DNA from: Lacibacter luteus
Lineage (GTDB): Bacteria; Bacteroidota; Bacteroidia; Chitinophagales; Chitinophagaceae
Length of the DNA: 64,000 bases
NCBI RefSeq assembly: GCF_004118265.1
Contig: NZ_SDHW01000003.1
Location: forward strand, 310,001 to 374,000
Direction of reading: 5' to 3'
The translations under genes and the position numbers were made by a program. Position 1 is the stretch's first letter. Every line of letters starts with the position of its first letter. The notes under the pieces were generated by a model. That model saw nothing but the letters and a program-made list of their open reading frames with translations. It was not told the DNA's origin and did not search any database. Positions 47,700-53,672 of the stretch are shown in pieces.

Positions 47700-47732
47700 C
47701 TTCTCATCGACAGATTTTCCCCTTTCGTCGCA
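47700..47732 (+). promoter_or_regulatory. LytTR-type direct-repeat site before the histidine kinase gene
   Basis: Two copies of a CTTYTCGTCGCA-like motif, at 47700-47711 (CTTCTCATCGAC) and 47721-47732 (CCTTTCGTCGCA), start exactly 21 bp apart. LytTR regulators bind two direct repeats about two helical turns apart. The second copy ends 29 nt before the -7 box. Confidence 0.5.
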
Positions 47733-47761
47733 AAACAGAAAACTTTCAACTGAATAAATAA

Positions 47762-47769
47762 GTACTTTG
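47762..47769 (+). promoter_or_regulatory. -7 box of the histidine kinase operon
   Basis: GTACTTTG, a near-match to TAnnTTTG (6 of 6 for TTTG and adjacent bases except the first T), lies 5 nt before the ATG at 47775, which suggests a leaderless mRNA. Confidence 0.45.
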
Positions 47770-47774
47770 TATGC

Positions 47775-48815
47775 ATGAGCGGCAAATGGTATACACGCAA
47801 ATCGGTTGTTTTTGGAATGCATGTTTTATTCTGGGCATTATTCCTTGCGCTTCCTTTTTTACTAAGACCTGTATCTGATAGCAGGGCACACACAGACGAG
47901 AAGCCTGATGGCATGTATTACCTGCATTTTATTAAAAACTTTCTCTGGATCTCGCTCTTTTATTTCAATGCGTATTTTTTGATACCGGTATTGTTTTATA
48001 CAAGAAAATATAAACGTTACATACTTGCATTGCTGGCATCGCTTCTTTTTATATGGCTGGCCGACAGGTTTATGTTCGCTTTGTTAATGCAGGGATATGA
48101 ATACAGGTTGCGTAACTTTTTAGTGTTTAATCTTCCTGTGTTTATTTTCATCACATTGGCAAGCACCGCTTTCCGTACTATTCGTGACAGGATTACAGAA
48201 GACAGTGAAAAGCAGCAACGACAGAATGAGAACCTGAAGACTGAACTTTCATTTTTACGTTCGCAGGTAAGTCCACACTTCATGTTCAATATCTTAAACA
48301 ACATGGTGGCACTGGCAAGAAAGAAATCGGATATACTGGAACCTTCACTGATCAAACTTTCTTCACTCTTACGTTATATGTTATACGAAACAGATGAAGA
48401 CAAAGTATTGCTTGATAAGGAAGTTGATTACCTGCAAAGTTATATTGATCTGCAACGTTTACGTTTTGGCAAGAATGTACAGATCAATACCGAACTGCAG
48501 CAAACAGCCATTGCTTATACCATTGAACCAATGTTGCTGATCCCATTTGTGGAAAATGCATTTAAGCATGGTGTTGGTATGATCGAAGATGCACAGATCG
48601 ATGTCAACCTGAAAGTAGAAAAAGATCAATTGTATTTTTCTGTGCGGAATAAATTCAGTGCTGCGAGCGAAAATGAACCGAAAGACAAAACATCGGGCAT
48701 TGGTTTGGCGAATGTAAAAAGACGTTTAAATTTATTGTATCATCAAAATCATTCGTTGATGATTGATAAACGGGATGGTTGGTTTACTGTTTCACTTCAA
48801 TTAAAACTGCATTAA
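47775..48815 (+). CDS. LytS-type sensor histidine kinase
   Basis: 346 residues. Four transmembrane helices lie in residues about 15-135, then a HisKA-like His_kinase domain with LRSQVSPHFMFNILNNMVAL (phosphoacceptor His near residue 170) and an ATP-binding C-terminal part (IPFVENAFKHGVG, SGIGLANVKRRL). The family lacks a sensor domain of known specificity. Its stop codon overlaps the response-regulator start by one base (TAATG). Confidence 0.92.
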   Translation: MSGKWYTRKSVVFGMHVLFWALFLALPFLLRPVSDSRAHTDEKPDGMYYLHFIKNFLWISLFYFNAYFLIPVLFYTRKYKRYILALLASLLFIWLADRFMFALLMQGYEYRLRNFLVFNLPVFIFITLASTAFRTIRDRITEDSEKQQRQNENLKTELSFLRSQVSPHFMFNILNNMVALARKKSDILEPSLIKLSSLLRYMLYETDEDKVLLDKEVDYLQSYIDLQRLRFGKNVQINTELQQTAIAYTIEPMLLIPFVENAFKHGVGMIEDAQIDVNLKVEKDQLYFSVRNKFSAASENEPKDKTSGIGLANVKRRLNLLYHQNHSLMIDKRDGWFTVSLQLKLH

Positions 48816-49522
48816 TGCTTCGTTGTATTGCAATAGATGATGAAGAACTGGCACTTGAACTGCTGGCAGATAACATCAGCAAAGTTCCTTTTCTGCAATT
48901 GGTAGCGGCCTGCAACAATCCGCTGGAAGCGTTACGCATTATGCAGCAGGAACAGGTTGATCTTGTTTTTATTGATATACAAATGCCGGGGTTGAATGGT
49001 CTGCAGTTTATTCAAAGCAGTCCGCAACAATGCATGTTCATTCTTATTACCGCATACGAAAAATATGCACTGGAAGGTTACAACCTGAATGTGGTTGATT
49101 ATCTGTTGAAGCCGGTCGAGTTGAATCGTTTTATACAGGCATGCAATAAAGCCAACGAACTGCATCAGCTCAAACAAAAACCAAAACAGGAATCTACTCA
49201 ACAGTCTTATTTTTTTGTGAACGTAGAATACAGTCTGCACAAAATTGAAAAGGCTGACATTACCTGGATCGAAAGCCTGAAAGATTATATTAAGATTCAT
49301 CTCAAAAGCTCAACCAAACCGGTTATCACCCGCATGAGTTTAAAATCGGTGGAAGAGCAATTGCCTGCACAGCAGTTTGTGCGTATTCACAAGTCTTTCA
49401 TCGTGGCTGTTGCGGCCATTACTTCTATTCGTAAAAGCAGTGTGTTTATCCAGGATATGGAATTGCCCATCAGTGATAATTTCAGGGAGAAGCTCTTTGC
49501 AGTTATCGGTCGTGCTGAATAG
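48815..49522 (+). CDS. LytTR-family response regulator
   Basis: 235 residues. The receiver domain has the acidic pair IAIDDEE (residues 5-11), the phosphorylated Asp in LVFIDIQMPGLNG (near 54) and the conserved Lys in VDYLLKPVEL (near 103). A linker rich in K and Q is followed by a LytTR DNA-binding domain (IESLKDYIKIHLKSSTK and FVRIHKSFIVAVAAITSI). It should be phosphorylated by the kinase encoded directly before it. Repeat sites upstream of this operon and of the barrel gene are its likely targets. Confidence 0.93.
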   Translation: MLRCIAIDDEELALELLADNISKVPFLQLVAACNNPLEALRIMQQEQVDLVFIDIQMPGLNGLQFIQSSPQQCMFILITAYEKYALEGYNLNVVDYLLKPVELNRFIQACNKANELHQLKQKPKQESTQQSYFFVNVEYSLHKIEKADITWIESLKDYIKIHLKSSTKPVITRMSLKSVEEQLPAQQFVRIHKSFIVAVAAITSIRKSSVFIQDMELPISDNFREKLFAVIGRAE

Positions 49523-49549
49523 CCAGTCCGAAGCTTACAAGTGCCTTTT

Positions 49550-49641
49550 CGTCATTTCGATCCCGCCCGTAGCGGGAGAGAAATCCCTTTTTTTTCGGAC
49601 AGTTTAAAATTTATGAGACCTCTCCTTACGTCGAGGTGACG
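49550..49641. repeat. 92-bp palindromic intergenic repeat
   Basis: The outer arms CGTCATTTCGA (49550-49560) and TCGAGGTGACG (49631-49641) pair over 11 bp with two G-U wobbles. Inside is a hairpin TCCCGC-CCGTA-GCGGGA (49561-49577). The layout is that of dispersed palindromic repeats seen in Bacteroidota intergenic regions. Only one copy occurs in the window. Confidence 0.6.
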
Positions 49642-49660
49642 TTAACTTACAGATATCGCT

Positions 49661-49721
49661 CTTTTCGTCGCATCATTTTCCCTTCTCGTCTCATTTGCCC
49701 TAATCAGCCCTTCTCGCCGGT
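49661..49721 (+). promoter_or_regulatory. LytTR-type direct repeats before the barrel protein gene
   Basis: CTTTTCGTCGCA (49661-49672) and CTTCTCGTCTCA (49682-49693) start exactly 21 bp apart, as at 47700. A third, weaker copy, CTTCTCGCCGGT, is at 49710-49721. The second copy ends 29 nt before the -7 box, the same distance as at the kinase promoter. Confidence 0.55.
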
Positions 49722-49722
49722 C

Positions 49723-49730
49723 TACTTTTA
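49723..49730 (+). promoter_or_regulatory. -7 box of the barrel protein gene
   Basis: TACTTTTA, 7 of 8 matches to TAnnTTTG. The predicted start near 49737 gives a leader of about 12 nt. Confidence 0.45.
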
Positions 49731-49748
49731 CATTATAAATTATCTCAA

Positions 49749-52376
49749 ATGAAAAAGTTTATTCTGGCACTTGTGGCAATCGTCACTTTTCAAATAGCAA
49801 AGGCGCAAATGCCCGGTGCTGCTCCTAACCAGGCACCTCCAAGTATTGGTCGCATTTATGGAAAATTGATTGATAGTACAGGAAAGTCAATTGAAGGCGC
49901 TTCGATTGTTGTATTGCAAAATAAATACGACAGTGCAACGAAGAAAAGAAAGGATGTATTGTTGAAAGGAACCATCAGTGCAGCCAATGGCGATTTTAAT
50001 ATTGAAGCCTTGCCGATCATGGGCCCATTGAAATTAACCGTATCGGCTACAGGATTTGAAGCATATACACAAACAGTAACGTTTCAACCGAAAATGCCTG
50101 CGGGTGCTGCACAGCAAAAACCTGCTAACGGACAAATGCCCGATATGAGTGCAATGGCTTCTGCATTTGAAAAAGATTTAGGTAAGCTGAGCCTGGTAAA
50201 ATCGGTAAAAGAATTATCGGAAGTTGTTGTAACAGCAACAAAGGGAAGATTGAAAATGGATATTGATAAAAAGGTATTCAGTGTTGATCAAAATATTGTG
50301 AGTGCAGGAGGTACTGCAGTTGATATTATGAAGAACGTTCCTTCGGTGAATGTTGATATTGATGGAAATGTAACTATGCGTAATGCATCACCACAAATTT
50401 ATATTGATGGTCGCCCAACAACTTTATCACTTGATCAGATTCCTGCAGATGCCATTGAAAGCGTAGAGATCATTACAAACCCATCTGCAAAATATGATGC
50501 ATCGGGTGGCAATGCGGGTATATTAAATATTGTATTGAAGAAAAATAAAAAGAACGGTTACAACGGTAACGTAAATGTGGGTATTGATAAACGTGGTGCG
50601 ATCAATGGCGGCGCAAGTTTAAATCTCCGTCAGAATAAATTTAATCTTTCATTGAGCGGTTTTGGTAACCAGATGAAAAACCGTAACACAAGTTCAACAG
50701 ATATTACAAGTTTGCTTACAACGCCGAATGTATTGGTAAATCAAACAGGTAGTACAATTATGAATGGTGGTTTTCTGTTTGGCCGTGCAGGTGTAGATTA
50801 TTTTGCCACTAACCGTTTAACGCTTTCATTGTCTGCTGTAAGAGTGCATGGTGAGTTTAGTCCTGATGCTGTTTTGAAAACGGACAGCAGTTATAACAAT
50901 GCTTCGTACATCAGTTTCAGCAACCGTACAACAGCAACAAAAAGAGAGTTCAACGCAACCGGCATACAAGGTGGGTTTAAATATTTATTTCCAAAAGAAG
51001 GAGAGGAGTTAACAGCCGACTTCAACATTTTCAATGGCCGCAATAGTAACAACCTTAATTACAACACCGGCATCTATACCTATGAAGGCGGTGCAAAAAC
51101 AGGAGAAGTATTGCAGCAGATATTGGGCAGTGGCACAAACAACTTTGTTACCATCCAGGCCGATTATGTAAAACCATTCAGCAAAGCCGGTAAAATTGAA
51201 ACAGGTGCAAGAGTGCAGTTGCGCACCATGACGAATAATCAATCGAACTACATGTTCAATAATTCAACAAATGAATATGTGTTGGTGCCGAACGCAACAA
51301 GCAATTATAAAAACAAAGACAATGTATATGCAGCATATATTTCAGTAGGAAATCAGCATAATAATTTTGGGTACAAAGTTGGTTTGCGTGCAGAAAGCTC
51401 TGATTATACCGGAGAGTTGACAGATACAAAACAAAGCTTCAGCAATAAATATCCGTTGAGCTTATTTCCATCATTGTTCTTAAGTCAGAAGCTGAGCGAT
51501 AAGCAGGAGTTGCAGTTTAGTGTAACACGTCGTGTAAACCGTCCGTTCTTTATGCAGGTGATTCCGTTTATTGATTCAACAGATCAGTTGAACTGGACAA
51601 GAGGTAATGCAGCGTTGAAACCTGAGTTTACCAACTCGGCTGAAGTATCGTATTCAAAAACATTTAAAGGAGGCAATACAGTTTTAGTGTCGGCGTATTA
51701 TAAATACACAACCAACTTAATCACACGCTTCCTTGATACAGTTACACTGGCATCAGGCGAAAAACGTCCGATCAGTACGTATCAGAATGCACAGTCAAGT
51801 CAATCGTATGGTGTTGAGTTTACATCACAAAATGTATTGACAAAGTGGTGGGATCTGAATTCGAATCTCAACATTTATAATTCAAAGATCAATACAGATA
51901 ATATTACAGGCACATCGCAGGCTGCAATGTGGAGCTGGTTTGCAAAAGTGAACAATAACTTTAAACTGCCTGCCGATTTTAAAATTCAGTTATCGGGTAC
52001 GTATCAATCAAAAACCAATTTGCCGGTGAACCAGAACAGTGGTATGGGAGGTCCGCCAATGGGTGGTGCGCAAAGTGCAGCGCAAGGATATATTAAAGCC
52101 AACTGGGGTATTGATGCCGCTATCTCCAAAAGTTTCTTAAAGAACAAAGCAGCAACTGTAACATTTAATGTGAATGATATTTTCAGAACAAGAAAGATGG
52201 ATCAGTATTCAGCAAGTTCGTTCTACATACAGAACAGTTATCGTTTAAACGATGTGCCGATGTTCCGTATCAACTTTGCATACAAGTTTGGCCAAATGGA
52301 TATGTCGCTCTTCAAGCGTAAAAATATGAAAGCAGAATCTGAAGGCTCGCAAGGAGCCATGCAGGGAATGCAGTAA
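49749..52376 (+). CDS. Outer-membrane beta-barrel protein (OMP_b-brl_3, TonB-receptor-like)
   Basis: 875 residues. The signal peptide ends IAKAQ (residue 19). Residues about 33-120 form a carboxypeptidase-like sandwich (GRIYGKLIDSTGKSIEGASI). A plug-like region follows (LSEVVVTATKGRLK, IYIDGRPTTLS, KYDASGGNAGILNIV), then a barrel of about 600 residues. Met- and Gly-rich stretches lie near the end (GMGGPPMGG; GAMQGMQ). It probably imports or exports an unknown ligand. Promoter repeats shared with the adjacent LytTR operon suggest control by it. Confidence 0.86.
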   Translation: MKKFILALVAIVTFQIAKAQMPGAAPNQAPPSIGRIYGKLIDSTGKSIEGASIVVLQNKYDSATKKRKDVLLKGTISAANGDFNIEALPIMGPLKLTVSATGFEAYTQTVTFQPKMPAGAAQQKPANGQMPDMSAMASAFEKDLGKLSLVKSVKELSEVVVTATKGRLKMDIDKKVFSVDQNIVSAGGTAVDIMKNVPSVNVDIDGNVTMRNASPQIYIDGRPTTLSLDQIPADAIESVEIITNPSAKYDASGGNAGILNIVLKKNKKNGYNGNVNVGIDKRGAINGGASLNLRQNKFNLSLSGFGNQMKNRNTSSTDITSLLTTPNVLVNQTGSTIMNGGFLFGRAGVDYFATNRLTLSLSAVRVHGEFSPDAVLKTDSSYNNASYISFSNRTTATKREFNATGIQGGFKYLFPKEGEELTADFNIFNGRNSNNLNYNTGIYTYEGGAKTGEVLQQILGSGTNNFVTIQADYVKPFSKAGKIETGARVQLRTMTNNQSNYMFNNSTNEYVLVPNATSNYKNKDNVYAAYISVGNQHNNFGYKVGLRAESSDYTGELTDTKQSFSNKYPLSLFPSLFLSQKLSDKQELQFSVTRRVNRPFFMQVIPFIDSTDQLNWTRGNAALKPEFTNSAEVSYSKTFKGGNTVLVSAYYKYTTNLITRFLDTVTLASGEKRPISTYQNAQSSQSYGVEFTSQNVLTKWWDLNSNLNIYNSKINTDNITGTSQAAMWSWFAKVNNNFKLPADFKIQLSGTYQSKTNLPVNQNSGMGGPPMGGAQSAAQGYIKANWGIDAAISKSFLKNKAATVTFNVNDIFRTRKMDQYSASSFYIQNSYRLNDVPMFRINFAYKFGQMDMSLFKRKNMKAESEGSQGAMQGMQ

Positions 52377-52895: not shown

Positions 52896-52924
52896 TTTTA
52901 CTTTTTTTAAGTTAATTCATTGAT

Positions 52925-52957
52925 AAAGGCTTTCAATATGAAAGCCTTTTCTATTTT
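52925..52957 (+). terminator. Intrinsic terminator after the DUF4870 gene
   Basis: AAAGGCTTTC (52925-52934) pairs with GAAAGCCTTT (52940-52949), loop AATAT, followed by TCTATTTTT. Confidence 0.85.
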
Positions 52958-52959
52958 TG
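52952..52959 (+). promoter_or_regulatory. -7 box for the downstream lipoprotein gene
   Basis: TATTTTTG matches TAnnTTTG. Transcription would begin near 52966, 50 nt before ATG 53016, and overlaps the end of the preceding terminator tail. Confidence 0.55.
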
Positions 52960-53015
52960 GTACTGCAATTGATCCTTTTCCTATGACATGTTGTTGTTCA
53001 TTAAAACCGAAGCTT

Positions 53016-53672
53016 ATGAAGCATATTCTACTCTTACTCTCTCTTTCTTTAGTTATTTCTTCCTGCGCCAGAAAAAAAATGATGGAACGTGTACAGCAGT
53101 ACAACATCCGCACTATTGCTATCTTACCGGCACAACTGGAAGTAACAGGTAATATTCCCAAAAAGCTTACAGCAGAACAGGTAAAGGAAATGATTGCCAA
53201 AAACAACGCATTTCTTAATCGTGCTTTATACATCGACCTGGTGCAGTATGTAGATACCCGCTTGCGTCGTTACTCACAAGTACAGTTTCAAAGTTCGGAG
53301 CGAACAAAAAAGCTGTTGGAAGAAAAAGGGCTTAGTGATTCTGCTGTTTGGCAAATGGATCCGATGGAGCTGTCGAAAATATTAGGTGTTGATGCGGTAG
53401 TTTCAACTAAGGTTACGCAAAATCATATTCTCAGCGATGAAGTAGCATTGGGCGTGGATATTGTTGGTGGTATTTTAAACAGAACAATACCCGGCATTGG
53501 TGTACCTACGGGTGCAGCACGCACCAGCGATATGTTTGTGAGCAGTGCTTTAATTAAAGAAGGATATACGGTTTGGAGCACTCGCTTTACCAACCAAACC
53601 GACTGGAATTATCCGTTCCAGCAATCCATACAAAATGTAACAAGAGCTATTGCAAGACGGTTCCCGTTATAA
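53016..53672 (+). CDS. Predicted lipoprotein, 218 aa
   Basis: The signal peptide has a lipobox VISSC (Cys17). The rest has a mixed alpha/beta domain with IRTIAILPAQLEVTGN and ILGVDAVVSTKVTQN, resembling the CsgG/TolB-N-like surface lipoproteins, and a C-terminal stretch (DWNYPFQQSIQNVTRAIARRFP) typical of that type. The assignment to a family is tentative. ATG 53016 is used because upstream in-frame codons would read through the preceding terminator. Confidence 0.72.
   Translation: MKHILLLLSLSLVISSCARKKMMERVQQYNIRTIAILPAQLEVTGNIPKKLTAEQVKEMIAKNNAFLNRALYIDLVQYVDTRLRRYSQVQFQSSERTKKLLEEKGLSDSAVWQMDPMELSKILGVDAVVSTKVTQNHILSDEVALGVDIVGGILNRTIPGIGVPTGAARTSDMFVSSALIKEGYTVWSTRFTNQTDWNYPFQQSIQNVTRAIARRFPL

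Follow-up and report, generated by a model that had tools for sequence, protein, structure and literature searches.

A candidate LytTR operator before a kinase-regulator operon and the adjacent outer-membrane barrel gene of Lacibacter luteus

The locus

The stretch of DNA that was analysed, here called the window, is 64,000 nucleotides of the Lacibacter luteus genome, which is 5.07 Mb in size and lies in 28 contigs. The genes of interest are:

47775..48815, + strand: sensor histidine kinase, LytS type (PF06580, 80 bits; PF14501)
48815..49522, + strand: response regulator with LytTR DNA-binding domain (PF00072, PF04397)
49749..52376, + strand: outer-membrane barrel, TonB-dependent-transporter-like (CarboxypepD_reg, Plug, OMP_b-brl_3)

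The gene 5' of the kinase looks like mfd from a reading of its sequence. The kinase has the two properties that define the kinase of a LytS/LytTR system, a PF06580-type domain and several membrane helices, seen as four hydrophobic segments by hydropathy; it also has an HFMFN motif, and no separate sensor domain was found by domain search and hydropathy. The stop of the kinase gene is overlapped by the start of the regulator gene. In the regulator both PF00072 (66 bits) and PF04397 (64 bits) score above the cut-off, as expected of the regulator of a LytS/LytTR system; there are 13 LytTR matches in the genome, 12 besides the local regulator. The best NCBIfam match of the regulator is BtsR (NF008677) with 116.4 bits, and because the curated cut-off is 246 it was not filed as BtsR; the protein is BtsR-like only. 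Kinase and barrel found no match in NCBIfam.

The barrel protein is 875 residues long, and Plug (PF07715) and OMP_b-brl_3 (PF14905), that is, a plug and a large barrel, are above cut-off. An AlphaFold2 model built with 34 sequences has a mean pLDDT of 68.6, with the plug part (residues about 153-267) below 50. Compared with the PDB the model finds PhuR at the top (E 2e-18, TM 0.45 by query length), and further matches are Cir, the enterobactin receptor and OprC; by sequence the barrel has no match among solved structures. We describe it as TonB-dependent-transporter-like, and it would be expected to transport.

Two other features should be mentioned. The gap between regulator and barrel contains a stretch of about 106 nt (49540-49645) with the look of an inverted repeat and two partial copies elsewhere in the genome, which we take to be akin to dispersed intergenic repeats; it is missing from the same-genus genome G160, where the gap is 108 nt. 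An ORF of 250 residues at 52920-53672, 3' of a DUF4870 gene, has no Pfam or NCBIfam match at E 0.001.

The two half-site pairs

Each of the two promoters carries a pair of half-sites:

47700..47711, + strand: kinase promoter, distal half-site, weak, CTTCTCATCGAC; core 47703-47711, 6 of 9 core letters
47721..47732, + strand: kinase promoter, proximal half-site, CCTTTCGTCGCA; core TTCGTCGCA at 47724-47732
49661..49672, + strand: barrel promoter, distal half-site, CTTTTCGTCGCA; core TTCGTCGCA at 49664-49672; in alignment A1
49682..49693, + strand: barrel promoter, proximal half-site, CTTCTCGTCTCA; core CTCGTCTCA at 49685-49693; in alignment A1

A preliminary description of this DNA had postulated two repeats 21 bp apart at both promoters, and this is correct to the letter, with starts at 47700 and 47721 and at 49661 and 49682. 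The half-site at 47700 is weak; it agrees in 9 of 12 letters, and in the core register, where CTCATCGAC at 47703 is set against YTCGTCKCA, in 6 of 9. If at most five mismatches in total to CTTYTCGTCGCA are allowed, spacing 21 gives two pairs in the window, namely the kinase and the barrel pair; the 27 other spacings (12 to 39) give, with the same limit, three pairs in the window, all of them with the same barrel half-sites.

In a scan of the 5.07-Mb genome with zero mismatch the pair pattern matches only the kinase and barrel pairs, which is a measure of rarity and not of function because the pattern was written from these very sites; with up to three mismatches the pairs are no commoner than in a control, 143 against 194 for the reversed pattern. 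A third copy had also been proposed at the barrel promoter (49710-49721), and 9 of its 12 letters are indeed present, but it is not conserved in G160 and a third half-site at 49710 was rejected.

Conservation of the sites

The comparison set consisted of 80 named loci and 30 loci from family genomes. Removal of near-copies via shared 12-mers reduced the barrel promoters from 62 to 51 and the kinase promoters from 107 to 93. A word count made on these non-redundant promoters with no prior motif found TTCGTCGC as the commonest 8-mer of both groups; it occurs in 38 of the 51 promoters of the barrel and in 32 of the 93 of the kinase. The self-match of the promoters is best at a lag of 21 in both groups: for the kinase promoters it is 6.60, the mean over lags being 5.56 (sd 0.26), and for the barrel promoters 6.31 with a mean of 5.59 (sd 0.23), lag 18 being close with 6.22.

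The barrel sites, picked by core score, could be put into a gap-free alignment of 38 columns (A1), from which the model R1 was made; it holds 49 of the 51 non-redundant barrel promoters, the two with less than 13 of 18 core letters being excluded, and reads TTCGTCGCAaCATTTt-CC--CTYRTCTCATTTG. Cores of 9 nt with 12 nt between them, as expected of an operator, are thus kept in 49 of 51 barrel promoters. A LytTR operator is described as a pair of repeats, each 9-11 nt long and separated by 11-13 nt (PMC4847170), and the repeat distance of about 21 bp, which had been brought forward as typical of LytTR domains, fits this rule. For the kinase promoters an alignment A2 and a model R2 were made from 49 sites picked by hand from 61, with the window's own site among them; the registers of the window and of the nearest record, L042, were set by hand, since L042 was placed wrongly by MAFFT. 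L042 has a poor half-site at the kinase promoter. As a separate observation, the half-sites before the barrel are altered in L087 and L079.

The proteins of G160 are 95% (regulator), 78% (kinase) and 89% (barrel) identical to those of the window. At its barrel site the distal core is identical, the proximal core has 7 of 9 letters with the GTCTCATTTG part whole, and much of the flank is changed. At its kinase site the distal core agrees in 8 of 9 letters and the proximal core in all 9; as most of the sequence from there to the box is kept as well, the evidence for the kinase site rests on the wider family.

When the genome was scanned with R1, the barrel site came out with E 7e-9 and the next hit with 0.64, the barrel site being one of the 49 in the model. 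A scan with R2 placed the kinase pair at the top (E 0.0014), and the next hit, at 0.19, was the barrel site. There is thus no third strong R1 or R2 site and no excess of pairs over the control, and a large regulon in the Lacibacter luteus genome was rejected.

The -7 boxes and the distance to the site

Both sites are followed by a -7 box:

47763..47769, + strand: kinase -7 box TACTTTG (7-letter type), 30 nt after the site and 5 nt before the ATG
49723..49730, + strand: barrel -7 box TACTTTTA (8-letter type), 29 nt after the site

The preliminary description gave 29 nt between site and box at both promoters. This is exact at the barrel; at the kinase the distance is 30 nt, and 29 is obtained only if the box is read as eight letters from 47762. 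If the measurement is anchored on TTT[G/A], the gap is 33 nt at both promoters, and in this sense the "identical geometry" of that description is true of the window. It fails as a rule, because most relatives have some 10 bp more between kinase site and box, and the two promoters have their strong and weak half-sites in opposite order. The promoters are not alike either, their -7 boxes being of different kinds with the kinase box one base shorter. The counterpart of the barrel box in G160 is TACTTTTG.

The distance at the barrel promoter could be followed in a larger material, as R1 ends 6 nt beyond the second half-site and has no -7 box in it. We classified 125 distinct loci with R1 hits from the own genome and from 117 and 394 family genomes, which are overlapping samples; besides the hits that already were loci, 60 stretches were taken by hand, and the classification covers part of the hits. 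Of the 68 barrel hits, which overlap the sites that built R1, 54 have a TAnnTTTG whose start lies 28-30 nt beyond the second half-site, and none has one elsewhere within 70 nt. The 29 nt thus stands as a conserved distance at the barrel. The non-barrel hits numbered 57, and 12 which scored below 20 in the matrix were excluded; among the 45 kept, several of which are clipped at contig ends (e.g., L169, L278, L280) and may belong to barrels, 18 have the box at 28-30 nt and 2 at other offsets.

Kinase and barrel promoters were compared for loci with a scorable site and a regulator of at least 55% identity, those below 55% being excluded. The 58 kinase promoters have a strict 7-letter box, TAn[TC]TTG, in 36 cases, an 8-letter box in 5 and neither where expected in 17, whereas the 46 barrel promoters have an 8-letter box in 40 cases and a 7-letter box in one; in 40 of these 46 promoters of relatives a TAnnTTT[GA] follows the site at 28-29 nt. 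Counted from the site, the start of the 7-letter box lies at 37-40 nt in 29 of the 36 kinase promoters that have one and at 28-30 nt in the other 7; the two classes are about one helical turn apart, and the window with its 30 nt belongs to the minority. The better half-site is the proximal one at 48 kinase promoters and the distal one at 4 (n = 58); at the barrel promoters (n = 46) it is distal in 43 and proximal in 1. The window follows both rules.

In 31 of 36 kinase promoters exactly 5 nt separate the 7-letter box from the ATG. A 7-letter box at 5 nt was found at 29 of 1,003 ORF starts (975 kb, the window and the named loci), and 25 of these 29 are kinase genes. The -7 box of Flavobacterium psychrophilum has been mapped at -12 to -5 (PMC9723704), and a box 5 nt upstream would therefore make the A of the ATG the first transcribed base, so that the kinase mRNA, made from the 7-letter box (47763-47777), probably has no leader. 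A more tentative idea, which we regard as rather doubtful, is that one LytTR regulator uses the same operator at two kinds of promoter: that of the barrel with its standard TAnnTTTG box, and that of its own operon, which would be leaderless, have the TAn[TC]TTG box shortened by one base and, in most relatives, bear the operator about one helical turn higher up. The latter could then possibly be read by an alternative sigma factor, and if the idea is true, feedback and output would go through different forms of the polymerase or different contacts with it.

The link between site and regulator

A half-site was called when it had at least 8 of 9 core letters. With a regulator at least 60% identical to that of the window, 48 of 60 loci have it before the kinase; the figures are 6 of 14 at 55-60% and 1 of 19 below 55%, compared to 12 of 465 random stretches from the same loci. 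In 117 genomes, with thresholds of E <= 1e-3 for the site (R1) and E <= 1e-72 for the regulator, both were present in 23, the regulator only in 19, the site only in 2 and neither in 73 (Fisher p 6e-11, a value which overstates the association because related genomes are not independent). A strong R1 site is missing from 19 of the 42 genomes that have a close regulator, in a scan whose filters lose weak matches. In a tree of the regulators one clade of 72 (support 94) has 53 of the 54 site-bearing loci.

Eleven of the 19 siteless members of this clade sit in one branch. In six loci of this branch (L079, L087, L144, L146, L150, L151) we observed the barrel gene directly 5' of the kinase on the same strand, and barrel, kinase and regulator may therefore form one operon there; efflux-type gene clusters occur in the branch too, in L081-L083. 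G028 has a kinase pair of this type, and 5.9 kb before it, on the same strand of the same contig, is a TolC-like gene that carries the site. Considering these upstream genes, the kinase site may be absent from the branch because the operon starts further up.

Kinase and regulator are neighbours at all 53 loci. Of 46 loci, 33 have the barrel no more than 6 kb downstream, with the barrel as next gene in 21; among the 13 others, 2 have the barrel upstream. Four residues of the regulator, T203, S209, F211 and E216, differ between the 53 site-bearing regulators and 19 distant ones and would be candidates for specificity; the LytTR domain matches solved LytTR structures too weakly (best E 0.016) for a placement of these residues at DNA contacts.

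Further sites and genes in relatives

Several kinds of genes follow the non-barrel hits that have a TAnnTTT box at 28-30 nt. They code for YceI proteins (L194, L195, L235, L250, L255, L289), small exported proteins (L268, L277, L280), an efflux adaptor (L181, L192), TolC (L187, L199, L283), FG-GAP proteins with CxxCH (L233, L249), a cytochrome-like protein (L276), an ApbE-like protein (L200), a beta-propeller (L201) and others. One example each of YceI, HlyD, FG-GAP and propeller was confirmed with Pfam, three other targets had no Pfam match, and the remaining names come from a reading of the sequence. A YceI cluster, identified via likeness to L255 and L194, is also present at 11 of the 80 named loci. 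The local hits of HlyD and TolC type may in part reflect operons that hold the kinase pair. In relatives the YceI, efflux and cytochrome-like genes are possibly additional targets of the regulator.

Two families of exported proteins were noticed on the way. Those of L268, L277 and L237, about 145 residues long, lie 3' of R1 hits and are alike by eye; the one of L277 has no Pfam match. The other, a 241-residue protein (L048:6743-7468), is a neighbour of the kinase-regulator pair at 12 of the 80 named loci, and its first 120 residues have no Pfam match.

A model for the control of the two promoters

The model we prefer, with a probability of about 0.8, is that both pairs are operators of the LytTR regulator encoded between them, which would activate its own operon and the barrel gene. 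That the site belongs to the kinase-regulator operon and the barrel, as first proposed, agrees with the footprint, the lag of 21, the fixed distance to the box, the co-occurrence and the linkage of the genes; from these comparisons of sequences we infer binding and activation at both promoters. Points against the model are the 19 of 42 genomes that lack a strong site, the 17 of 58 kinase promoters with neither box, the 13 of 46 loci with no barrel close downstream, the poor half-site of L042 and the 12 further LytTR matches of the genome. A signal sensed in the membrane would make the four-helix kinase phosphorylate the regulator. Two regulator molecules would then bind the two half-sites, which from their spacing and from what is seen in the family would be separated by two helical turns and point to the same side of the DNA, and the bound regulator would activate RNA polymerase at the -7 box, the distance to which is fixed. 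The targets in Lacibacter luteus would be the kinase-regulator operon, giving positive feedback, and the adjacent barrel gene. Because the sites of some relatives precede YceI, efflux/TolC, cytochrome-like and small exported-protein genes, the system probably serves envelope transport or stress.

The regulator could also bind its sites mainly as a repressor, so that the targets are freed on signal. There is a precedent in CoxC, a LytTR repressor bound to three direct repeats that cover the -35 box (PMC11347149). The sites described here stop short of the -7 box by 28-30 nt (or 37-40 nt), which puts them upstream of the core promoter and not over it, where the site of most LytTR activators is found (PMC11347149), and a distance that is fixed and stepped by about one turn would speak for contact with the polymerase. 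Repression is on these grounds unlikely.

According to another hypothesis the pair is bound by a different protein, either one of the other LytTR regulators or a member of another family, and the local regulator has sites of a different kind. Candidates are at hand among the 13 LytTR matches in the genome, and some sites in relatives precede genes far from any kinase pair; but the pair is found at both promoters of the local module, it tracks the identity and the presence of the local regulator across genomes, and nearly all site-bearing loci fall into the single regulator clade. We judge this hypothesis to be quite improbable. A chance likeness of short T/C-rich words near promoters, for which the weak distal half-site of the window's kinase promoter and the kept stretch between site and box in G160 could be quoted, is very unlikely because of the footprint, with 49 of 51 barrel sites aligned, a box outside the model at a fixed distance in 54 of 68 barrel hits and half-sites in 48 of 60 promoters against 12 of 465 random stretches.

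Comparison with known systems

The BtsS/BtsR system of Escherichia coli has a narrow transporter regulon. Its regulator has the same domain layout as the one described here; site and target are different, and our regulator reaches 116 bits where 246 are needed.

YpdA/YpdB of E. coli with its target yhjX is a parallel in that it consists of a LytS-type kinase and a LytTR regulator, has a direct-repeat pair and a very narrow regulon of a transport gene, and works by activation (PMC4847170), as the system in Lacibacter luteus probably does. The YpdB repeat is another sequence, GGCATTTCAT, and the target is an inner-membrane MFS carrier (PMC4847170), whereas here it would be the adjacent TonB-dependent-transporter-like barrel of the outer membrane, and here the kinase operon carries the site too. 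CoxC and RcoM have in common with our regulator the LytTR domain and direct repeats at two-turn steps, and the RcoM1 repeat, TTCNNGCA, has some likeness to the core TTCGTCGCA; unlike the system here they are one-component gas sensors with three repeats, and CoxC is a repressor (PMC11347149).

The 7-letter boxes share one trait with the SM5 promoters of F. psychrophilum, in which TA and TTG are one base closer than in TAnnTTTG, as in the kinase promoters (PMC9723704). The SM5 box, TAnnTTGY, has a pyrimidine after the G; C or T follows the G in 20 of the 36 kinase 7-letter boxes, and the window has T. No LytTR site is named in the description of the SM5 promoters (PMC9723704).

Significance

We found no study of a LytTR operator in Bacteroidota in the open-licence literature. 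LytS/LytTR systems with a narrow transporter regulon, such as YpdAB of E. coli, are already known, and this one would be of their kind; what is new is the sequence of the operator, together with its regulon and the arrangement with two promoters. The finding supplies a defined candidate operator at a fixed distance to the -7 box which is Bacteroidota's own, and a regulon that can be read across the family. It ties an uncharacterised family of TonB-dependent-transporter-like proteins to a sensor, and it offers a clean system in which to test how a LytTR activator meets the polymerase of Bacteroidota, with a natural shift of one turn between the two promoters.
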